DNA of 64,000 bases from Acidovorax sp. Root219. GTDB lineage: Bacteria; Pseudomonadota; Gammaproteobacteria; Burkholderiales; Burkholderiaceae_C. The stretch is taken from the NCBI RefSeq assembly GCF_001428665.1, contig NZ_LMIJ01000001.1:1-64000 (forward strand). The letters run 5' to 3'. The notes beneath the pieces are model-generated. The model saw nothing but the letters and a program-made list of their open reading frames with translations, was not told the origin of the DNA and did not search any database. The position numbers were made by a program, and so were the translations under genes. This document shows positions 10,901 to 61,348 of the stretch, one piece after another (position 1 is the stretch's first letter; each line of letters starts with the position of its first letter).

Positions 10901-11217
10901 CCGTGCGCAGCACGGACTTCCCGGCGCGCATCGCCGGCGACGAGTTCGCCGTGGTGCTGCCCCATCTGTCGTCGTGCGATGAAGCGCAGACCGTGGCCGA
11001 CAAGGTGCTGCACGCCATCCGCGAACCCCTGCCACTGCAGCACCACATGCCCCGGCAGATGACCACCAGCGTGGGCGTGGCCTACCTCGCCCCGGGCGAC
11101 CCGTCGGTGCGCCCCACCGACCTGCTGCTGGCCGCCGACCGCGCCCTCTACGCAGCCAAGCACGGCGGGCGCAATGCCTGCGCGGTGCATGTGGTGGATC
11201 TGCGGGAGGTGGGGTGA
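7945..11217 (+). CDS. Membrane diguanylate cyclase with three PAS domains
   Basis: 1090 residues from ATG at 7945 with GAGG upstream. Order: N-terminal multi-helix membrane region (about 1-210), a helix and a periplasmic sensory region (about 230-495), a membrane helix (about 499-515), three PAS domains starting near 534, 662 and 796, and a C-terminal GGDEF domain (914-1090). The active-site loop reads AGDEF (997-1001), an accepted active variant, and RSTD (988-991) is a complete product-inhibition I-site. No EAL domain follows. It should make cyclic di-GMP and be feedback inhibited. The signal sensed is unknown. Confidence 0.92.
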   Translation: MAHMVRDRHATTSLALGALGTAFAFGLVLRSAFPHLALGKGLADAMEPGIHAALILLLLGAALCLRAFPDTHRPAQAAASLLALAAGLYSVLALWRALAGHDAAADLPGFITGSSLRAPGAHSLSPNGGAAFIAGAAALWFAAPLRRTRQRRAGLLALAVLAAVATLGLAGHLMGLELLYRVASHNQVRLTTAVALLVLGAGIWQLRDRVLIDRARDPQWLERRITYRAITALTLVAVGGGIAGFVAMRETFEKSVLQAMEQSARTYALALDDALRSSLALSAAVGDHHAVAQAMERLSGSPRDVQAGEQLEKLTAGFLMGGVDGVRFLDARGHLLHTAGLFLGDSARSIESLDLDGPQQAELRWNAGYVLRTLVPMHQGGTVVGQVVMEQKLRLFDSLMDQMRRSTESADALICRRRADVAACAPSRLYPTPFTVPLWAASGKPNLPVSLALLGQSGVNYARDLRGVPVVAGYGPIGGYGLGLVLKTDVTTLYAPLRGQLHLIVLSVLALVAAGTWALRRRVRPLLATLVQEQQRTADILNTAGDAFIAVGADGRVTDWNPEAVRMFGWSTAEAIGRDVAQLMVPRIHPHAPLTDFAQLVNLGSNQAVSRHTELVGHHRDGSEVPVEMMMTVQPTANGPIANAFLRDIRSRREAEQRLARSEQRLRDVLCSLPAVVCHFDARQRCLFANDYALQSRGLIAHPQVGLYAQELLGDVQYALHLPYLLEALAGRRAQFEGCVDHEGTPRHLQSHLIPEFDAGDGEGSTGPAVVGFYLMSFDVTAVKELQLRHERTERRLRAIADNLPVMITYIDRAHRLQFLNHTFEEWTGLPIANALGKPLPEVIGPALYAQRADPLRRALSGQRVQFEVESQALGIRRILQTDYIPDMVAVGEVLGIYTLTTDVTAIRQSERRMKELAMTDTLTGLANRRQFDIHLAAALQASQVSGTGMALMFLDIDHFKAINDTWGHAAGDAALIAMAERLQGAVRSTDFPARIAGDEFAVVLPHLSSCDEAQTVADKVLHAIREPLPLQHHMPRQMTTSVGVAYLAPGDPSVRPTDLLLAADRALYAAKHGGRNACAVHVVDLREVG

Positions 11218-11334
11218 GGGGGATACATCGGAGCGCTCCGGCCTGGCCGAGGCAACCACCGCGCCGCGATAATCGGCGCAGCCTTGGTTTCACGCCCTGC
11301 CCCCTGTTGCCCCCCTTTTCAACGGAGACACCGC

Positions 11335-11898
11335 ATGCCCCTGCCCCCCGACGTACTCACCGAGATCGACGCCTTCGTGCGCGGTGGTTTTGAAGACCGC
11401 GAGCGCACCATCGAGATCCTGACCGAGGAGATGTACGAGCCCGGCGAGCTCGATGCCGCCGAGGTGGAGCACGCCGTCGATGCGGCCATGCGGGCGCACG
11501 ACCAGGCGAAAAAGGGCTGGCCGGCCACGACCGATTGCGACCGGCTGGATGCCGCCTTCGACGCGCTGGCCCGCCAGGGCTTGGTAGCCCTGCAGAACGC
11601 GGGCTACACGCAAAGCGATGGCTATGGGGACGTGACCGAGGCTTGGCACAACGCGCCGGACCGGGCCGACATCGTGGGCTACTGCTTCTACCATGGCCAG
11701 GACCTGGCGCGCGCGGTGCATGGCGGCGGCCTGTTCCTCGCTTTCGGCCCCATGGATGCCGACACCGAGGAGACCGAGGGCCCGCGCATCGGCGCCCTCA
11801 TCGCCAGCGAACTGCAGCGCGCGGGGCTTGAGGTACGCTGGAACGGCACGTTCAACCAGCGCATCTGCATTCCGGGCATCGACTGGAAGCGGCGCTGA
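11335..11898 (+). CDS. DUF6891-like protein
   Basis: 187 residues from ATG at 11335, preceded by GGAGAC. The protein is acidic and soluble with no signal peptide. The segment GYCFYHGQDLARAVHGGGLFLAFGP is, as I remember it, the hallmark of the DUF6891 family. No biochemical role is known to me. It is followed after 20 bp by a VOC-fold gene on the same strand and may be co-transcribed with it. Confidence 0.7.
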   Translation: MPLPPDVLTEIDAFVRGGFEDRERTIEILTEEMYEPGELDAAEVEHAVDAAMRAHDQAKKGWPATTDCDRLDAAFDALARQGLVALQNAGYTQSDGYGDVTEAWHNAPDRADIVGYCFYHGQDLARAVHGGGLFLAFGPMDADTEETEGPRIGALIASELQRAGLEVRWNGTFNQRICIPGIDWKRR

Positions 11899-11918
11899 CC
11901 CCTGCATACCGACAGACC

Positions 11919-12560
11919 ATGCTCCAGCTCGACCACCTGTCCATCATCGCGCCCTCGCTCAAACAGGGAGTGGCCCATGTGCGCGACTGCCTGGGCATCG
12001 ACATGCCATTTGGCCGCCAGCACCCCGACATGGGCACCCACAACCACCTGCTCAGGCTGGGCGACGATGTGTACCTGGAGGTCATCGCCATCGATCCCGC
12101 TGCCCCTGCCCCGGCGCAAGCGCGCTGGTTCGGGCTCGATGACAGGGATGCGGTGCGGGCGGCCTGGGACAGCGGCCGCCGCCTGCGCGGCTGGGTGGCA
12201 CGCACGCAGCAGATGGACGCGGTGCTGGCGCAGCACGGCCACCTGCTGGGCCGCAAGACCCAGCTGTCCGCCGGGGCCGCACCGCCCTACTTCTTTGCGA
12301 TCCCTGCGGGCGGCGCGCTGCCGCTCGCAGGCGTGGCGCCTTCGGTGATCGACCGGGGTCAGCGCCCACCGCCGATAGCGTCGATGCCGGACCTGGGGGC
12401 GCGGCTTGTCCGCTTCACCATCGAGCACCCCGAGCCTGACATGGTGCTGGCCCTGTATGCCAGCCTGGGTATAGAGAACGCACCCCATGTGGAAAAAAGC
12501 GACCGCTTGCACTACCGCGCCGAGATACGCACGCCCGCAGGCATCAAGGCGCTGTACTGA
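11919..12560 (+). CDS. VOC-superfamily (glyoxalase-like) protein
   Basis: 213 residues from ATG at 11919. The start LQLDHLSIIAPSLKQGVAHVRDCLG is typical of the glyoxalase-like family (PF13468): a beta-alpha-beta module with His5 as a likely metal ligand. GTHNHLLRLGDDVYLEVI supplies the second strand pair and a Glu ligand. The C-terminal half is a second, weaker module. Family members are metal-dependent lyases, isomerases or binding proteins; the substrate is unknown. Confidence 0.75.
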   Translation: MLQLDHLSIIAPSLKQGVAHVRDCLGIDMPFGRQHPDMGTHNHLLRLGDDVYLEVIAIDPAAPAPAQARWFGLDDRDAVRAAWDSGRRLRGWVARTQQMDAVLAQHGHLLGRKTQLSAGAAPPYFFAIPAGGALPLAGVAPSVIDRGQRPPPIASMPDLGARLVRFTIEHPEPDMVLALYASLGIENAPHVEKSDRLHYRAEIRTPAGIKALY

Positions 12561-12689
12561 TCCGTGCCCTGGGTACTGCGCAGGCCGCCTTGCCGTGGCG
12601 GTGCGCTACGATGCCACGCCAGTGCGGGCAGGTTGCCTACCCCGCAATACCCTTCCATCACCTCCCCTGGTCCCTGCGCCGGGCACAAC

Positions 12690-12704
12690 GGAGCTGTTCT
12701 TCTG
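12690..12704 (+). promoter_or_regulatory. Ribosome site and probable CTG start of the LysR gene
   Basis: GGAG at 12690-12693 is followed after eight bases by an in-frame CTG (12702). No ATG, GTG or TTG at a suitable position lies before the conserved LysR N terminus (TRRLDSYSLRLFIAVARTG), so CTG is the best start on the visible evidence. Confidence 0.5.
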
Positions 12705-13589
12705 ACACGACGCCTGGATTCCTACAGCCTCCGGCTTTTTATCGCTGTTGCCCGCACAGGCTCCATTGCACGGGCGGCAGAGCAGGAGCACATAGCGCCG
12801 TCCGCGCTGAGCCGCCGGCTGGCCGATCTGGAGCATGCCTTCGGGACGGCGCTGGTGGTGCGCTCGCCGCGCGGCGTGGCGCTGACCGATGCCGGTCGCA
12901 TCGTTTTCGAGCGGGGTGTCCGTCTCGACGACGAACTGCAGGGACTGCTGCGCGAAGTGCAGCTGCACAGCGACGAAGTCCGGGGCACGGTGCGCCTGTA
13001 CGCCAACATGTCGGCCGTGGTCGGCTTCTTGCCCGAGCGGCTCAAACACCTGAAGGCAAAGTACCCGGGCCTGGACATTTCGCTGCACGAAGCGGATACG
13101 CGGGAAGTCATCCGCGCGTGCCTGGACGACAGGGCGGATGTCGGCGTGGGCGTTGCCGGCACGGTTGCGCCAGGGCTCGATTCTTGGCATTTTGCGAATG
13201 ACCCTTTGCAGGTGGTGGTTCCCACGGGACACGAGTTGGGCCACCTGAAGTCGGTCGAGTTTGCCAAGGTGCTGGAGTTTCCGCTGATCGGGGTGCACCA
13301 GGGCGGCGCCCTCGACCAGACCCTGCATGAGCGCGCGCAGGCGGTGCAGATGCGGTTTGCGCCCGAGGTGTCGGTCAGCAGCTTCGACGCCGTGGGCCGA
13401 ATGGTTGAGGCCGGGATGGGGATTGCCGTGATCCCGCAGAGCGCTGCTTCGGCCTATGCGGGCAATGCGCGCTTCACGCGGCTGCCGCTGGCGGATGCAT
13501 GGGCGGACCGGGAGCTGCGGCTCTACGCCCTGCGGCGCACACCCCAGCTGCGCTCGGTCCAGGCGCTCATCGATTGCCTTTGCGGGTAA
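12702..13589 (+). CDS. LysR-family transcriptional regulator of the aconitase-like cluster
   Basis: About 295 residues if translation starts at CTG 12702, the usual length for LysR regulators. The winged helix is complete: SLRLFIAVARTGSIARAAE, then APSALSRRLADLEHAFGTALVVRS and ALTDAG. The effector domain is of the LysR_substrate type. A GTG at 12564 in the same frame would give an unlikely N-terminal extension of 46 residues. It lies 79 bp upstream of, and on the same strand as, the dehydratase gene, with Bug and aldolase genes beyond, so it probably controls that set in response to an organic acid. Confidence 0.85.
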   Translation: MTRRLDSYSLRLFIAVARTGSIARAAEQEHIAPSALSRRLADLEHAFGTALVVRSPRGVALTDAGRIVFERGVRLDDELQGLLREVQLHSDEVRGTVRLYANMSAVVGFLPERLKHLKAKYPGLDISLHEADTREVIRACLDDRADVGVGVAGTVAPGLDSWHFANDPLQVVVPTGHELGHLKSVEFAKVLEFPLIGVHQGGALDQTLHERAQAVQMRFAPEVSVSSFDAVGRMVEAGMGIAVIPQSAASAYAGNARFTRLPLADAWADRELRLYALRRTPQLRSVQALIDCLCG

Positions 13590-13668
13590 TCCCGGACGTC
13601 GAGTTCCGCGCTATCCCCCGTGCCGTCTTGGCACTTCCCAGAGGGCGCGTGGATTCCGATGATCGGGC

Positions 13669-15657
13669 ATGTCCATCCAGTCGCCCCACGCCCTGCGCTT
13701 TGCCCCACGCATCCTGTACCTGAGCCAATCGCCCGAGCTGGTGAGCAGGGCCTTGGCAGGCCAACGTGTCGCGCTGCCCGAAGCCCTGCCGCTGCGCGAT
13801 GACATCTCCACCGACGAAATCACACCGATCGCGATCCTCACCCACTTCGATGAGCAACTGGGGCGCTACCCCTACACCGGCTTCAAGGCCGGTGGCCAGG
13901 CGCCCATCGGGGTGGACGCCCTGCGCACCAGCGGCATACAGGTGGTGGTGGCGGGCAAGCGCTACGGCAAAGGCTCCTCGCGTGAGCACAGCCCGGCGGC
14001 CGAAAAGCTCGCCGGCGTGCGCCTGGTCATCGCCGAGAGCTTCGAGCGCATCTACCGGCAGAACGCCGACAACATCGGCCTGATCACCTCCACCGACTTC
14101 GGGCTGATTGCGCGGATCGAGGCCGGCGAGGAAATCACCTGGCGCGAGCTGCTGACCGGACGGGATACCCTGGATGCCGCCGTGCTCGCAGGCGGTGGCC
14201 TGCTGCGCTTTGGTCAGGCGCACCTGGGCCAGGTGTCCGAGCCGCTGCCGCCAAGGCAGCCCCAGGCTGGGGGGCGCACCCTGTTCGAGAAGATCGTCGC
14301 GCGGCACGCACTGGCCACCGGGGTCACGCCGGCCAACCCGGGCCGGGGCGATGGCGCCTTCGTGCGTGCAGACTGGCGCTTCATCCACGAGTACTACACC
14401 GGCATGGCGGCCCACATGCTGCATGCCACCTTCGGCAGGCCATTGGTGCTCAAGGACCCCGGTTCGGTCATCGTGTTCGAGGACCACACCTCCTATGTGC
14501 AGGAGAGCCCTGCGCACGTGCGCGGCGGCCTGGTCCCCAACGTCCATCGCATGGTGCAGGCACAGCGCGAGTTTGCGCAGGCTTACGCACTGCGCACCCA
14601 CCGCACCCTGACCGAGCAGGAAGCCCGCGACGACGACGGCGGCAACGTGGCCGGCATTTCGCACGCGATGATGGCCGAGCACTATGCCCTGCCCGGGCAA
14701 CTGGTGGTCGGCACCGACTCGCACACCCCGCACAGCGGTGCGCTGGGCTGCGTGGCCTTCGGGGTCGGCACCACCGACATGGCCAACGCCTTCGCCACGG
14801 GTGCGGTGCGGCTGACGCTGCCCGAGACCCTGCGCATCGTTCTGGACGGCGCACTGCCCCCGGGCGTGACGGCCAAGGACGTGGTGCTGCACCTGCTGGC
14901 GCAGCCCGGCATCCGCGGCGGTGCTGGCGTGGGCAAGGTGTTCGAGTTCACCGGGCCGGCCATCGCAGGCCTGGGCACGGACGAGCGCGCGACCTTCACC
15001 AACATGACAGCGGAGCTGGGTGGATTCACCGGCATCGTGGCGCCCGATGAGGAGACGGTGCGCTTTCTGCGCGAGCGTCGGGGCGTGGATTTTGTGGTCG
15101 AAGACTGGATGTGCAGTGACCCCGACGCCACCTATGCCGACACCATCCGCATCGATTGCGCGAGTGTGCCGGCGATGGTCGCCTCCCCGGGCGACCCTGG
15201 CAACGGCCTGCCCCTGTCCGCCCTGGCCCACCAAGTACGCATCGATATCGCCTACGGCGGCTCGTGCACCGCAGGAAAGCGCGAAGACTTCGACCACTAC
15301 CACAAGGTGCTGCGCTGGGCCGCAGACCGCAACCTCAGGGTGGCACCCGGTGTCGAGCTGTTCCTGCAGTTCGGAACCACCGCCGTGCGAGACCACTGCA
15401 TCGCGGCAGGCTACCTCGACGCCTTCGAGCGGGTCGGCGCGCGCATCCTGCAGCCCTCGTGCGGCGCCTGCGGCAACTGCGGGCCTGGAGGATCGAGCCG
15501 GGCGGACCAGGTCACGGTGAGCGCCATCAACCGCAACTTTCCGGGCCGTGGCGGCCCGGGCAACGTGTGGCTCGCCAGCCCGCCGACCGTGGCTGCCAGC
15601 GCGATTGCCGGGGAGCTGGTGTCATTCGACGAACTGCAACAACGATTTCCCACTTGA
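13669..15657 (+). CDS. Aconitase-superfamily hydro-lyase with swivel domain first (fused LeuD-LeuC-like)
   Basis: 662 residues. Residues about 20-190 form the swivel (LeuD-like) domain: DDISTDEITPI, then YGKGSSREHSPAAEKLAGVRLVIAES split across a loop. Residues about 260-655 form the large catalytic part. Fe-S ligands are visible as Cys533 (GGSCTAGK) and Cys598/Cys601 (SCGACGNCG, with Cys604 next to them). DSHTPHSGALG is the substrate loop. Domain order is reversed relative to most aconitases and resembles AcnB without its HEAT domain. It should dehydrate/hydrate a hydroxy di- or tricarboxylate. It stands between a LysR gene and Bug/RraA genes, so a catabolic substrate is more likely than isopropylmalate. 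Confidence 0.85.
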   Translation: MSIQSPHALRFAPRILYLSQSPELVSRALAGQRVALPEALPLRDDISTDEITPIAILTHFDEQLGRYPYTGFKAGGQAPIGVDALRTSGIQVVVAGKRYGKGSSREHSPAAEKLAGVRLVIAESFERIYRQNADNIGLITSTDFGLIARIEAGEEITWRELLTGRDTLDAAVLAGGGLLRFGQAHLGQVSEPLPPRQPQAGGRTLFEKIVARHALATGVTPANPGRGDGAFVRADWRFIHEYYTGMAAHMLHATFGRPLVLKDPGSVIVFEDHTSYVQESPAHVRGGLVPNVHRMVQAQREFAQAYALRTHRTLTEQEARDDDGGNVAGISHAMMAEHYALPGQLVVGTDSHTPHSGALGCVAFGVGTTDMANAFATGAVRLTLPETLRIVLDGALPPGVTAKDVVLHLLAQPGIRGGAGVGKVFEFTGPAIAGLGTDERATFTNMTAELGGFTGIVAPDEETVRFLRERRGVDFVVEDWMCSDPDATYADTIRIDCASVPAMVASPGDPGNGLPLSALAHQVRIDIAYGGSCTAGKREDFDHYHKVLRWAADRNLRVAPGVELFLQFGTTAVRDHCIAAGYLDAFERVGARILQPSCGACGNCGPGGSSRADQVTVSAINRNFPGRGGPGNVWLASPPTVAASAIAGELVSFDELQQRFPT

Positions 15658-53643: not shown

Positions 53644-55146
53644 TCACCCCGGCATCCAGGCAGGCTTGAACGCCGCATGGAACCCGAACGGCACCACCTG
53701 CGGCAAATGCAGCGTGGCCAGGCACTGCATGCTGGCCGGGTCGATCACGCCGATCACCGTGCCCTCGTCGCCTTCGGCCAGCGTGGGCACCAGCAGCACG
53801 CCATCGTCCTCGGCGGGGGAGCCGGGGCGATCCACGAACAGGGGCTCCAGCTGCACGGCGGCCTCGCGCTGCCAGGTGCCGGCGATGCGGCCGCCGTCCA
53901 GGTCGAGTTTCACCGTGCGGTCGAACATGGGCGCCTTGCCATCGGGGTCGAAGCCGGCAAACCAGGCATGGCGCGATTGCTTCTTGCCCCAGTAGGCGCC
54001 ATGCACGGCGGGCAGCTCCACGCTGGCGCCTTCGACCAGCGGCCGGGGCTGCGCATCGCTGCGGCCGGGCTCCAGCCGGTAGCGCTGCACGCGGTGCTGC
54101 ACGCCGATGGGCTGGCCGGCGCGCAGCCGATCCAGGCGCAGCGCGCTGAAGATCTCGGGGCCATCGGTGGTGCACAGGTCCAGCACCAGGGTGGCGGGCG
54201 TGCGCCCGTCCTGGCTGGGCTCGTCCCAGGCCTGCACGGCATGAAAACTGGCCATGGCCGGCACCACCCAGCTGCGCACGCTGCCATCGGTGAGCGAGAC
54301 GGCGTCGATGCGCGAACCCGTGGCCGCATTCCACTTGAAGTTGTCGATGAAGCCCTTGCCCGCCAACGCCAGCTTGATGGCATTGACCCGCATGGCCGGC
54401 TGCCACACCAGGGCGTGCGTGGGCGTCATGGCAAAGGCATGCAGGTAGCCCGCCTGCCGCACGGACCAGCGCCCCACCACCTCGCGCCGCCGGCTGCCCG
54501 CCACGATCTTGAACAGCTTGTAGGTGCACTTGGGGCCCATCTCCACGCCCACGTTCCAGTAGGTGCCCTGCGCGTCCGTGATGCCATGGGCCGACATGAC
54601 GTGGACCACCTCGGCATCGTCGTACACGATGCGCCCCGTGGTGGCCAGCGTGTCGGGGTCGAAGCTGGTGAGCAGCGGCGTTTCGGTCTGCGCCACCCAC
54701 TGCGAGCCGATGCGCGCCATCACCACCGCCCCGTTGTCCGTCACGATCGGGTGGCGCAGGTTGCGCAGGCGCGAAAACAGCCCTGCCGGGTCGGCCGTGC
54801 CAAAGGCACTGCGCGCCGGCTTGCGCGCCGCCAGGCTCTCGCGCAGGTCATCGGTCTGCAGGTAGCGGCTGCGGTAGGTGGCGCTGGCGCCCCCCACATC
54901 GCCCGGCGCCAGCCGCACCCGGTGCAGCATGGCCAGGCCATCGAACCAGTGTTCGTAACTGCCATGGGGCAAGTCCCACAGCGCCGGGCCATTGAGGAGC
55001 AGGCTGCCGCCGATGAGCCACGGGGGGATCTGGCCGCGGACTTCGACCGGGGTGTCGGGGAGCTCGCGGGCGGTGGATTGGAGGCCGCGCAGGCGGGTGG
55101 TGAAGTGTGAAAGCATAGCGCTGGCAGCCGTTGAAGCAAGGGGCAT
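53644..55146 (-). CDS. Carotenoid oxygenase-family protein
   Basis: 500 residues from ATG at 55146 (ATG at 55116 is also possible). Seven-bladed propeller pattern of carotenoid/stilbene cleavage enzymes, with four iron-ligand His in HVMSAHGITD, YLHAFAMTP, ASFHAVQAWDE and PFGFHAAF, and FDGLAMLHRVRL near residue 68. It should cleave a double bond in carotenoids or lignin-derived stilbenes with non-haem Fe(II). No carotenoid genes are nearby. No signal peptide is evident. Confidence 0.88.
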   Translation of the reverse strand: MPLASTAASAMLSHFTTRLRGLQSTARELPDTPVEVRGQIPPWLIGGSLLLNGPALWDLPHGSYEHWFDGLAMLHRVRLAPGDVGGASATYRSRYLQTDDLRESLAARKPARSAFGTADPAGLFSRLRNLRHPIVTDNGAVVMARIGSQWVAQTETPLLTSFDPDTLATTGRIVYDDAEVVHVMSAHGITDAQGTYWNVGVEMGPKCTYKLFKIVAGSRRREVVGRWSVRQAGYLHAFAMTPTHALVWQPAMRVNAIKLALAGKGFIDNFKWNAATGSRIDAVSLTDGSVRSWVVPAMASFHAVQAWDEPSQDGRTPATLVLDLCTTDGPEIFSALRLDRLRAGQPIGVQHRVQRYRLEPGRSDAQPRPLVEGASVELPAVHGAYWGKKQSRHAWFAGFDPDGKAPMFDRTVKLDLDGGRIAGTWQREAAVQLEPLFVDRPGSPAEDDGVLLVPTLAEGDEGTVIGVIDPASMQCLATLHLPQVVPFGFHAAFKPAWMPG

Positions 55147-57988: not shown

Positions 57989-58942
57989 CTAGGCCCTCCT
58001 TTTGGGGGAGCGTGGCCGCTTTTCCACAGGGGGTGGAGGTGGTGGCACCAGACCTTCGCAGGCTGCACGCAGCCACGCCAGCACGGTGTTGAAGGCATCA
58101 CCATCGTCCACGGCCGCGCGCGGCGCCATGAGCTGGTAGCAGCTGCCATCGGCCACAAAACCGCGCGGCGCGCACAGCACGCCGCTGGCCAGGTCGTCAG
58201 CCACCAGGGCCAGCGGGCCGATGGCCACGCCGGCACCGGCCACGGCGGCCTGCAGGCTCTGGTAGAAGTGCTCGAAGCGGATGGCGCGCGTGGGCTGCAG
58301 GGGCGTGCCGGCCAGCGCAGCCCAGCTCTCCCACGCGCCCGGCCGCGTGGCGGTGTGCAGCAGCACGCCCTGCAGGGCTGCGCCTTGTTGCGGCCCGAGG
58401 GTGGCGGCCACATCGGGGCGGCACACGGGGCCGATGTATTCGTGCACGAAGGGCTCGGCCACCACGTCGTCGGCCAGCGCAAAGTCGTTGCGGCGAATGG
58501 CCAGGTCGATGCCGTCGCGCTCGAAGTGCACCACGCCCCCAGCCGACACCAGGCGCAGCTCGCGCTCGCCCCCCACGGCGGCCTGCAGCTGCGCCAGCCG
58601 CGGTATGAGCCAGCGGATCAGCAAGGTGGGCTCGCACGACAGCACCAGCGGCCGGCCCGGCCCCGCCGTGCGGCGCGCACGGGCCAGGGCCGCGCGCAGG
58701 CGGTCCAGCGCGCCGGCCACATCCTCGGCCAGCACCTGGGCGGTGGGCGTGGGCACCACGGCGCGGCTGCTGCGCTGGAACAGGTCAAAGCCCAGATCGC
58801 CCTCCAGCTCGCGCACGGCACGGCTGACGGCGCCGTCGGTCAGGTGCAGCTCGCGCGCAGCGCGCGACACGCTGCCGTGGCGCACCGTGGCCTCGAAGGC
58901 GCGCAGGGCGGACAGCGGGGGCAGGCGGGTGTCTGGAGACAT
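57989..58942 (-). CDS. LysR-family regulator (GcvA-like)
   Basis: 317 residues from ATG at 58942. Winged helix LPPLSALRAFEATVRHGSVSRAARELHLTDGAVSRAVRELE (residues 7-47) with the GcvA-type start, then an effector domain (LSCEPTLLIRWLIPRLAQLQAA, GIDLAIRRND). A Pro-rich C terminus is unusual. It diverges from the PdxA-fusion gene across 110 bp and probably controls it; it may also be co-transcribed with the serine hydrolase gene downstream. Confidence 0.85.
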   Translation of the reverse strand: MSPDTRLPPLSALRAFEATVRHGSVSRAARELHLTDGAVSRAVRELEGDLGFDLFQRSSRAVVPTPTAQVLAEDVAGALDRLRAALARARRTAGPGRPLVLSCEPTLLIRWLIPRLAQLQAAVGGERELRLVSAGGVVHFERDGIDLAIRRNDFALADDVVAEPFVHEYIGPVCRPDVAATLGPQQGAALQGVLLHTATRPGAWESWAALAGTPLQPTRAIRFEHFYQSLQAAVAGAGVAIGPLALVADDLASGVLCAPRGFVADGSCYQLMAPRAAVDDGDAFNTVLAWLRAACEGLVPPPPPPVEKRPRSPKRRA

Positions 58943-59052
58943 GGCTTGGTGGTTGAGTTTTGCTCAATCATGCATGAGATCAAATCGATTTTCTGAAAGC
59001 GCTTGCCCAGGCACAGTGTCGGCATTCCATTGATTGAGTCTCAAGAAACCCG

Positions 59053-60837
59053 ATGACAGCAGCGACAACGACTCACCCCCTGCCCCTGGCCATCACCATG
59101 GGCGACCCGGCGGGCATCGGCCCCGAGATCATTGCCAAGTGGGCGATGGGGGCGCTGGCGGGCAACCGCCACGTGCACCCTTTTATCGTGCTGGGCGACG
59201 TGGGCACCCTGCAGCGCGCGGCAGCCATGGTGGGCGCACCGCTGCAGTTGCGCGCCGTGGGCGATGACCTGCATGGGATGCGCGAAGCACTGCAGCAAGG
59301 CGCCCTGCCCGTGTTGCAGGCCTGCACACCGCTGCCCGCCGACTTGCCCATGGGCCGGGTGGACGCACGTGCCGGCGCCGCAGCGCATGCCTGCGTGCAG
59401 CGCGCCATCGACCTGGCGCTGGCGGGCAGCGTGGCCGGCATCGTGACCGCGCCGCTGCACAAGGAGGCGCTGCGCGCCGCTGGCGTGCGGCACCCGGGCC
59501 ACACCGAGATGCTGGCCGAGCGCGCCGGCACCACCGAATTCGCGATGATGCTGGCCAATGGCGAGCTGCGGGTGCTGCTGGTGTCCATCCACCTCTCGCT
59601 GCGCGATGCGATTGCCGCCGTGACGCCCCAGAACGAGCTGCGCGCCATACGCCTGGCGCACCGTGCCTGCCGCGCCTACGGCATTGCACACCCGCGCGTG
59701 GCGGTGGCGGGGCTCAACCCGCATGCAGGCGAAGGCGGGCTGTTCGGCCGCGAAGACCAGGACACCATTGCCCCCGCCATTGCCGCTGCGCGCGCCGAGG
59801 GCATCGACGCCACGGGCCCCTGGCCGGGGGACACAGTGTTCATGCGAGCACGCCAGGGCGACTTCGACATCGTGGTGGCGCAGTACCACGACCAGGGCCT
59901 GATCCCCGTGAAGTACCTGGGGGTGGACCAGGGCGTGAACATCACCGTGGGCCTGCCCTTTGTGCGCACCTCGGTGGACCACGGCACGGCCTTCGACATC
60001 GCGGGCACGGGCCGTGCCGATGCGGCCAGCCTGGGGCATGCGGTGGAGCAGGCGGAGGCCATGGCCGTGGCCTCTTCCATGCAGCCGGCCATGGTGGTGA
60101 CCACGCAGGTGCAACCACCACCTGCCCCTCCATTGCCGGAATTCATCTTCATGCTCACCCGGCACGACAAGACCATCGCCGACGCCCTGGAGCAGTTGCC
60201 CACGGTGCTGGCCGCCGGGGTGCGGCACATCGGCTTCAAGGACATCGGCCTGCCCTGGGCCGCGCTGCAGCGCCTGGCCGATGCCATCCGCGCGGCCGGC
60301 GCGGTGAGCTACCTGGAGGTGGTGAGCCAGGACGCGGCGAGTGAGCTCGCATCGGCCCGCGCCGCCGGGGCGCTGGGGGTGGACGTGCTGATGGGCGGCA
60401 CCCGGCCCGAGGCGGTGCTGCCGTTGCTGCGCAGCACCCCCATCCGCTACTACCCGTTTGCCGGCCAGGTGGTGGGGCACCCCAGCGTGCTGCAGGGCAC
60501 CGTGGCGGACGTGGTGGCCAGCGCGCGCCGCATTGCCGCGCTGGAGGGCGTGCACGGGCTGGACCTGCTGGCCTACCGGTTTGAGGGTGACTCTGCGGAC
60601 GTGCCCGCGCTCATAGCCGCCGTGTGCGCGGCGGTGGGCAAACCAGTGGTGGTGGCCGGGTCCATCGACCGGGCCGAGCGCATCGCAGCCGTGGTGGCAG
60701 GCCGGGCGGCAGGCTTTACCGTGGGCACGGCAGCGCTCGACGGCACCTTTGAAGCCACAGGCTTGGGACCGCATGGGCTGACAGGGCAGCTGCGCGCCAT
60801 CCAGACCGTGCTGCACGATGCAGCGGCGCAAGCCTGA
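59053..60837 (+). CDS. PdxA-like dehydrogenase fused to a C-terminal barrel-like domain
   Basis: 594 residues from ATG at 59053. Residues 10-335 are a complete PdxA-type domain: TMGDPAGIGPEI, APLHKEAL, metal ligands His180, His224 (GLNPHAGEGG) and His279 (AQYHDQGLIPVK), and DHGTAFDIAGTG. A Pro-rich linker (about 340-362) leads to about 230 residues that look like an alpha/beta barrel (HIGFKDIGLPWAALQRL, GVDVLMGGT, PVVVAGSIDRAERIAAV). PdxA paralogs with LysR regulators act on 4-phospho-threonate or -erythronate rather than in vitamin B6 synthesis. The added domain may process the product, but I cannot name it. Confidence 0.85.
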   Translation: MTAATTTHPLPLAITMGDPAGIGPEIIAKWAMGALAGNRHVHPFIVLGDVGTLQRAAAMVGAPLQLRAVGDDLHGMREALQQGALPVLQACTPLPADLPMGRVDARAGAAAHACVQRAIDLALAGSVAGIVTAPLHKEALRAAGVRHPGHTEMLAERAGTTEFAMMLANGELRVLLVSIHLSLRDAIAAVTPQNELRAIRLAHRACRAYGIAHPRVAVAGLNPHAGEGGLFGREDQDTIAPAIAAARAEGIDATGPWPGDTVFMRARQGDFDIVVAQYHDQGLIPVKYLGVDQGVNITVGLPFVRTSVDHGTAFDIAGTGRADAASLGHAVEQAEAMAVASSMQPAMVVTTQVQPPPAPPLPEFIFMLTRHDKTIADALEQLPTVLAAGVRHIGFKDIGLPWAALQRLADAIRAAGAVSYLEVVSQDAASELASARAAGALGVDVLMGGTRPEAVLPLLRSTPIRYYPFAGQVVGHPSVLQGTVADVVASARRIAALEGVHGLDLLAYRFEGDSADVPALIAAVCAAVGKPVVVAGSIDRAERIAAVVAGRAAGFTVGTAALDGTFEATGLGPHGLTGQLRAIQTVLHDAAAQA

Positions 60838-60973: not shown

Positions 60974-61348
60974 ATGACCCTCAACTGGAAGACCGCCGCC
61001 GCCGGTGCCTTGCTCGCCTTGGGCGTCCTGCATATCGTGATGGGCTTGGTAAGGTTCAAACAGCCGTTCCTGGCGGCACTGTCCGACGGACTGCTGGACG
61101 CATTCAAGACCGACGACAGCCGTCGCCTCGCGTTGTGGTTCACCCTGTTGGGGCCGGTGCTGATGCTGTGTGGCCACCTCGCGCTGCGGGCCGCCGCCAG
61201 CGGGGATGTGCACACCCTGGGACTGATGGGCGTGTACCTGCTGGTTGCCGCGTTGGTGGGTATCGTGGCCTTCCCGGCATCGCCCCTGTGGGCGTTGCTC
61301 GTGGTCGCAGGGGTGTTGTTCGCGACGGGGCAACGCTGGCTTGCGTGA
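60974..61348 (+). CDS. DUF6463-like small membrane protein
   Basis: 124 residues from ATG at 60974, with AAAGG upstream. Four helices; the opening AAAGALLALGVLHIVMGLVRF with LSDGLLDAF and RLALWFTLLGPVLMLCGHLAL fits the DUF6463 family as I remember it. Inner-membrane protein of unknown role. The 136 bp upstream are strikingly AT-rich (runs of A and T at 60893-60945) compared with the GC-rich gene, so they form an unusual promoter region. Confidence 0.7.
   Translation: MTLNWKTAAAGALLALGVLHIVMGLVRFKQPFLAALSDGLLDAFKTDDSRRLALWFTLLGPVLMLCGHLALRAAASGDVHTLGLMGVYLLVAALVGIVAFPASPLWALLVVAGVLFATGQRWLA

Follow-up and report, generated by a model that had tools for sequence, protein, structure and literature searches.

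A PdxA-family dehydrogenase fused to an unnamed barrel domain, probably an enzyme, in Acidovorax sp. Root219

Why should a PdxA-family dehydrogenase share its polypeptide with a second domain that has no name, and what might that domain do? The question is raised by a gene of Acidovorax sp. Root219 lying at positions 59053–60837 on the forward strand of the stretch analysed here (the window: 64,000 nucleotides, positions 1 to 64,000 of contig NZ_LMIJ01000001.1). The gene is a single open frame of 594 codons, with an ATG start, a TGA end and no internal stops, and the initial annotation read its 594-residue product as a complete PdxA domain with three metal-binding histidines, a proline-rich linker and a second, barrel-like domain. 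This layout is borne out by the open frame, the family models and the retained histidines described below, and the second domain is predicted with high confidence to be a (β/α)8 barrel, of a phosphate-handling type by similarity. The barrel is probably an enzyme, and we put the probability that the fusion is a bifunctional, two-enzyme polypeptide at about one half.

The two domains of the fusion

The N-terminal domain (residues 1–340; 59053–60072, forward strand) belongs to the PdxA family: PF04166 covers residues 42–334 (E 3.2e-107; 358.6 bits against a Pfam cut-off of 27) and TIGR00557 covers residues 11–338 (380.2 bits against an NCBIfam cut-off of 290.35). His180, His224 and His279, which by correspondence to E. 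coli PdxA we take to be the metal ligands, are retained in all 60 aligned PdxA sequences (the window's own, 58 that are linked to a barrel and the genome's other PdxA; a fragment at L064, in our numbering of loci, was left out). The domain runs into the Pro-rich linker (residues 341–360; 60073–60132, forward strand), which ends ...VQPPPAPPLPE and has a mean predicted local distance difference test score (pLDDT) of 41 over residues 341–350 and 38 over residues 351–360. A full-length model built on an alignment of the 13 fusions is of moderate quality on AlphaFold2-type measures (pLDDT 77.2; predicted template modelling score, pTM, 0.52), and its top Foldseek matches are the PdxA structures 4jqp, 2hi1 and 6e85.

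The C-terminal domain (residues 361–594, 234 in all; 60133–60834, forward strand) is predicted by AlphaFold2, run on an alignment of 57 sequences, to form a (β/α)8 barrel with a mean pLDDT of 94.7 and a pTM of 0.92. No Pfam family scores above its cut-off on these residues, the best being PF00977 (HisA/HisF; E 0.03, 14.2 bits against 23.6), and no NCBIfam model does so. The similarity to HisA/HisF lies in the fold and in the phosphate region of strands 7/8; specifically, residues 133–205 of the profile made from 57 barrels match HisA chains twice, once in the first half barrel and once in the strand 7/8 region (whole-chain E 7.7e-10). The best Foldseek matches of the barrel model are largely phosphate-handling barrels: BexX, BX1/TrpA, ThiE, RPE, HisA and KDPGal aldolase. 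A second structural aligner returned 999 aligned chains, all with Z of at least 8, headed by pyruvate kinase (Z 21.1; root-mean-square deviation, rmsd, 2.3 over 205) and HPS (Z 20.7, rmsd 2.6 over 199), two matches that we would read as pointing to a barrel and not to a function. Over the 57 barrels, with E allowed up to 1, the weak Pfam matches include PF03060 (NMO; 53 barrels, best 1e-6), PF00977 (52, best 1.3e-5), TMP-TENI (16) and Trp_syntA (14), and the weak NCBIfam matches include a GGGPS model (53, best 6.9e-5) and HisA models (50 and 49).

Thirty-one barrel residues are invariant in all 102 sequences compared. The polar ones are T9, D12, T14, K36, D37, E62, S65, Y106, H116, R149 and T196 in barrel numbering (add 360 for the window protein), and D144 (window D504) is retained in 101 of the sequences and S177 (window S537) in 100. 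The Lys-Asp pair falls at strand 2, the Glu at strand 3, the His after strand 5 and the Arg at strand 6; in the model most of the conserved polar residues appear to sit at the C-terminal ends of the strands, where barrel enzymes hold their active sites. Gly536, Ser537, Thr556 and Gly558 of the window protein are likely phosphate-site residues. Because the invariant set includes Lys396, Asp397, Glu422, His476 and Arg509 (window numbering), the barrel is probably an enzyme, and the pattern would fit one that uses a lysine and acidic residues on a phosphorylated substrate. It does not fit the OMP decarboxylase/KGPDC/HPS suprafamily: the D-x-K-x-x-D at strand 3, which we take to be the motif of that group, is missing (the barrel reads YLEVVS), and the conserved Lys lies in the FKD of strand 2.

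It is also worth considering that the barrel might not be catalytic at all, and might, as a sensor or an allosteric domain, bind some phosphorylated metabolite in the manner of GlpP, the glycerol-3-phosphate-responsive barrel. Weak matches to PF04309 (G3P_antiterm) in 26 of the 57 barrels (best E 0.012) point this way, but the invariance of Lys36, Asp37, Glu62, His116 and Arg149 (barrel numbering) in all 102 sequences goes beyond what phosphate binding would be expected to need, and 42 of the 102 barrels have no adjacent PdxA to regulate; we regard a sensor role as very improbable.

Fused and separate partners

When GTDB contigs were scanned, 307 of the 349 pattern matches were confirmed to encode a relative of the barrel. 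At E < 1e-50 a relative was present in 7 of 250 genomes of the bacterial family, in 12 of 398 genomes in a sample of the phylum and in 2 of 369 in a sample of the class, with the window's own genome counted in all three; no other match in these samples exceeded 28 bits, which is weak. The barrel is also carried by 22 plasmid records. The comparison set of 102 loci, with 99 distinct barrels, consists of the window, the best 80 of the 307 GTDB loci (and is to that extent biased to close relatives), 8 plasmid loci and 13 from the genome samples; the duplicates L021, L022 and L110 were removed before counting, and L107 and L108 lay outside the search behind the count. Taking as fused a PdxA and a barrel in one open frame, and as split a PdxA match that ends at most 400 bases before the barrel match, 13 barrels are fused to PdxA, 47 have a separate PdxA upstream and 42 are without a neighbouring PdxA. 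Eight of the last group (L109 and L112–L118) were classed on flanks of 1.5 kb; among the genes listed for wider stretches around seven of them (L189–L195) there was no PdxA or kinase match. Since at least one PdxA is present in 35 of the 36 genomes searched via their loci, a barrel with no PdxA beside it does not imply a PdxA-free cell.

That two neighbouring genes were united by an assembly error or a frameshift is an idea to which the 47 loci with separate genes lend some substance, but it is refuted by the other 12 loci that carry the same fusion, in Acidovorax (L027–L031, L033), Delftia (L037, L040, L042), Mitsuaria (L032), Microvirga (L038) and Roseomonas (L046). Their linkers differ in length and sequence, the spacing from DIAGxG to FIFML ranging from 28 to 58 residues over the 13 fusions. 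The barrels and the PdxA domains nearest to those of the window in the trees are all from Acidovorax. The barrel tree requires three changes to explain the fused state, and because at least two of these are forced by supported branches, fusion or fission has taken place more than once.

Where both occur, barrel and PdxA evolve in parallel. The same 32 loci, some fused and some split, form one clade in the barrel tree (support 95/89) and in the PdxA tree (97 in the Shimodaira–Hasegawa-like approximate likelihood-ratio test), and pairwise distances between barrels correlate with those between PdxA domains with r 0.89 over 59 loci, the maximum of 2000 permutations being 0.18. Furthermore, in the PdxA tree, which leaves out L266, the PdxA linked to a barrel are separate both from 22 PdxA of housekeeping type in the family (the genome's own among them) and from L239, L240 and L265; the last of these has no barrel within 1.5 kb and only a partial kinase match (E 1e-4).

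This separation, together with the kinase genes found beside relatives, is the basis for calling the dehydrogenase half PdxA2-like, as the initial annotation did; that it is a PdxA2 acting on a 4-phospho sugar acid may at most be supposed. The equivalog model for D-threonate 4-phosphate dehydrogenase (NF002891) gives 315.8 bits against a cut-off of 583, and assignment through the nearest solved structures, 6e85 and 2hi1, was dropped: the genome's other, housekeeping-type PdxA, serving as a control, also has its best matches to 2hi1 and 6e85.

Neighbouring genes and the missing kinase

Stand-alone homologues of the barrel, for which the initial annotation had suggested looking near pdxA2 or kinase genes, are found by annotation and similarity directly behind pdxA and a DUF1537 kinase gene. 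Annotated loci have the order LysR, four-carbon acid sugar kinase, pdxA, barrel, with a fused cupin present or absent, and Sinorhizobium fredii USDA 205 has the split order kinase-pdxA-barrel. A DUF1537 kinase gene lies upstream of the barrel locus in 6 of the 13 fused and 36 of the 47 split cases and in none of the 42 without PdxA, counts that come from three query kinases at E 1e-5, which diverged kinases could escape, as could more distant ones where a locus ends close to the barrel (L052 and L087, for example). An in-frame C-terminal extension of cupin length (more than 70 residues, with similarity to cupins demonstrated for some only) is present in 13 of the 47 split barrels, in 34 of the 42 lone barrels and in no fusion.

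The initial annotation also remarked that the kinase is missing from the flanks of the fusion, which is true of the window locus but, given the six fusions that have one, does not extend to the family. No DUF1537 kinase was found in the 64-kb window: the eight neighbouring proteins scanned belong to other families, and tblastn over the 64 kb gave only chance-level matches to the kinases of two relatives (E 0.18 or more) and E 0.06 for the OiaK-like kinase of the same genome. Upstream, a divergent gene for a LysR-type regulator (57989–58942, reverse strand; PF00126 E 2.9e-20, PF03466 E 5.9e-17) is separated from the fusion by a 110-bp intergenic region (58943–59052) that would probably serve as a LysR-controlled promoter, so placing expression of the fusion under this regulator. 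The regulator is 88–96% identical to the LysR adjoining the fused gene in L027, L028 and L029, and the LysR-proximal part of the intergenic region is kept in the same three loci. Next to this conserved part L027 has first the gene for a 402-residue DUF1537 kinase (PF07005, 119.4 bits, over the cut-off) and then the fused gene; the window, L028 and L029 have no kinase gene at that point, and the fused gene comes next. Either the kinase was lost here or relatives gained it, and the tree, with L027 nested among kinase-less neighbours, favours neither.

The only PF07005 match found in the window's genome is an OiaK-like gene on another contig. There (L187:3042–9186, contig C11) genes for a TRAP transporter, a glyoxalase-like protein, the OiaX-like RuBisCO-like protein and the OiaK-like DUF1537 protein stand in a row; the last two do not reach the cut-offs of the NCBIfam equivalog models of OiaX and OiaK. 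Genomes were searched for six of the seven kinase-less fusions (all but that of L029), and each has a DUF1537 match over the cut-off somewhere, in the genome of L028 as two adjacent pieces; the type of this gene was determined for the window genome only. Because the other searched genomes of this kind (5 of 6) have a DUF1537 match elsewhere, it is possible that a kinase encoded at another locus serves the kinase-less fusions. Just downstream of the fusion, at 60974–61348 on the forward strand, the window encodes a DUF6463 protein, and L027 likewise has a DUF6463 gene behind its fusion. Further away, at 53644–55146 on the reverse strand, lies the gene for a 500-residue protein of the RPE65/carotenoid-oxygenase family (PF03055, E 1.5e-82).

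Around the 42 barrels without PdxA there are few consistent neighbour genes. In eight alphaproteobacterial loci (L047, L061, L072, L078, L079, L089, L094 and L106) a PdxY-like kinase gene comes directly before the barrel, at a distance of −11 to +13 bases, and stretch L193 shows the same match. The eight genes score 106–143 bits against the pyridoxal kinase model (cut-off 144.5, which that of L106 reaches in one scan), and in seven of the eight genomes no other pyridoxal-kinase match exceeds 46 bits. These loci bear on the main rival to the idea that the barrel works on what PdxA releases, namely that it acts upstream of PdxA or on the same phospho-acid, as an epimerase or isomerase with Lys and His as its two bases that would convert stereoisomers of a 4-phospho four-carbon acid for PdxA. 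A barrel directly behind a kinase gene, with no PdxA, fits action on the product of the kinase. Likewise, the kinase-linked PdxA of L239 and L240, from the same bacterial family and with no barrel within 1.5 kb, make the barrel look like an add-on, which might widen the substrate range. We nonetheless think this rival unlikely, as neither the repeated fusion to the C terminus of PdxA nor the gene order kinase-pdxA-barrel favours it, and no epimerase model passes its cut-off on the window barrel, though 42 of the 57 relatives weakly match the model for N-acetylmannosamine-6-phosphate 2-epimerase (best E 4.3e-4).

The same kinase genes also lend something to a link with vitamin B6. PdxA and PdxJ are consecutive enzymes of B6 synthesis dependent on 1-deoxy-D-xylulose 5-phosphate, and PdxJ, too, is a barrel; it is therefore conceivable that the PdxA half makes 3-amino-2-oxopropyl phosphate and that the barrel, as a PdxJ-like domain, makes or clears a B6-related compound. 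Such a branch would need no kinase if the cell's own 4-phosphohydroxythreonine were used, and phosphorylation of 4-hydroxythreonine is possible for members of DUF1537 according to passages of PMC7954711. We consider the B6 branch improbable: the genome's other PdxA and its PdxJ already cover B6 synthesis, and comparison of the barrel profile with that of PdxJ by hhalign gives a probability of 4% (3% for HisA), although these values carry little information because the profiles are shallow (effective number of sequences 1.6–2.5). With E allowed up to 1, PF03740 (PdxJ) does not match the window barrel and is not among the 24 families matched by the 57 relatives, and no PdxJ appears among the 50 structural matches listed from Foldseek and the second aligner, an absence that excludes nothing.

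The remaining neighbours are of several kinds. In Bosea (L056, L081, L090) the barrel lies behind one and the same gene set, with an ABC importer and a short-chain dehydrogenase/reductase; by Pfam, the set of L056 comprises a LuxC-like reductase, the ABC importer and a short-chain dehydrogenase. Among 39 groups of barrels formed at 80% identity in the fetched stretches (where gene calling yielded no gene for L067 and no barrel gene for L058 and L075), the recurring neighbours are Lrp/AsnC regulators (5), aldehyde dehydrogenases (5) and flavin adenine dinucleotide oxidoreductases (4), which offer hints of amino-acid or organic-acid catabolism but point to no particular substrate. In Marinibacterium (L103:8001–8678) the barrel lies behind genes from three of the neighbour clusters (Lrp/AsnC, aldehyde dehydrogenase and aminotransferase), a set that by eye resembles ectoine degradation, and in L013 the genes ehuABCD (10923–14029), annotated as ectoine transport, are a few genes from the barrel. 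Three stand-alone barrels (L013:7989–8687, L015:7992–8672 and L017:7986–8714) are labelled "4-hydroxythreonine-4-phosphate dehydrogenase" in public records. The barrel of L013 has no PdxA domain, and no match to Pfam at E 1e-5 or to NCBIfam at E 1e-10; it probably owes this label to the fused proteins.

A candidate reaction sequence and its relation to known modules

If the fusion is indeed a two-enzyme polypeptide, its PdxA half, with nicotinamide adenine dinucleotide and a divalent metal, would take a four-carbon acid phosphorylated at position 4, oxidise its C3 hydroxyl and decarboxylate it; this reaction is borrowed from the chemistry of PdxA and PdxA2, the domain itself being assigned by homology and by its retained active-site residues. 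The product would be a phosphorylated three-carbon ketone: a sugar acid would yield dihydroxyacetone phosphate, and 4-phosphohydroxythreonine would yield 3-amino-2-oxopropyl phosphate. That the barrel acts on this product is a tentative proposal, which we hold at clearly less than even odds. Under it, the barrel would bind a phosphorylated carbonyl compound at the strand 7/8 phosphate site, Lys396, Asp397, Glu422, His476 and Arg509 together with Asp504 might perform chemistry of the enolisation type (an isomerisation, an epimerisation or an aldol step), and the fusion would prevent the loss of a reactive ketone. Where relatives have a PdxA beside the barrel, the DUF1537 kinase would in most cases supply the phosphorylated substrate; with the kinase gene absent at the window locus, a kinase or pathway whose genes lie elsewhere would have to supply it here. 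A bolder version, unlikely in our view, makes the barrel the first known member of an enzyme family of its own, with an unrecognised step on the phosphorylated PdxA product as its task, and kinase, PdxA and barrel (with a cupin in some) a complete and undescribed pathway; kinase-less strains would then draw on an existing intermediate, such as 4-phosphoerythronate or the 4-phosphohydroxythreonine of B6 synthesis.

Several observations weigh against a joint action of the two halves. Common descent alone would account for part of the correlation between their distances. Kinase-linked classical PdxA with no barrel within 1.5 kb exist (L239, L240), which makes the barrel dispensable for some such pathways, and around one PdxA inside the barrel-linked clade (L242) there is no barrel or kinase within 1.5 kb, its genome (G023) being outside those of the family sample that have a barrel match. 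The 42 barrels with no adjacent pdxA show that there is no strict dependence on a neighbouring PdxA, and the kinase is lacking at the window locus and at six other fusions. Furthermore, the moderate full-length model gives no information on contact between the domains, and with no characterised relative of the barrel found, its substrate and reaction are guesses.

The founding work on modules of a DUF1537 kinase and a PdxA2 was reportedly that of Zhang et al. and of Thiaville et al., both in 2016. Such modules include DtnK for D-threonate and DenK for D-erythronate, as described in parts of the reviews PMC7954711 and PMC10971088. The loci considered here resemble them in having a PdxA-family dehydrogenase, a local regulator and, in most of the relatives' PdxA loci, a DUF1537 kinase; they differ in the additional barrel domain or gene, in the lack of a kinase at the window locus and in a PdxA that the tree splits from the kinase-neighboured, barrel-less PdxA of the family (L239, L240, L265). 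A fusion of DUF1537 to a gene of the pyridoxal phosphate pathway is given in Table 4 of PMC4921024; as in that entry, an unnamed domain is joined to a gene of vitamin B6 type and this points to function, but the partner there is a kinase and here an unrelated barrel. The barrel shares its fold and the strand 7/8 phosphate region with HisA/PriA, TrpA/BX1, ThiE, RPE, the ThiG-like BexX, KDPGal aldolase and HPS, but none of their curated models passes its cut-off on the window barrel, which has an invariant residue set of its own. No description of the barrel or of the PdxA-barrel fusion was found in the open-licence literature of PubMed Central, although a mention in the founding DUF1537 papers remains possible.

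Both the PdxA half and its association with a kinase gene belong to known kinds, and the barrel, unnamed in Pfam and NCBIfam, is an uncharacterised enzyme family that is often misnamed. Because its relatives adjoin the same kind of dehydrogenase in many bacteria, the barrel probably carries out an unrecognised step by which small phosphorylated acids are degraded. The fusion links the barrel to PdxA chemistry, which leaves a short list of candidate substrates and makes the function directly testable. If the barrel is catalytic, it would add a step to, or a branch from, the catabolism of acids by DUF1537 kinases and PdxA, and it may explain why some PdxA paralogues persist without a kinase.

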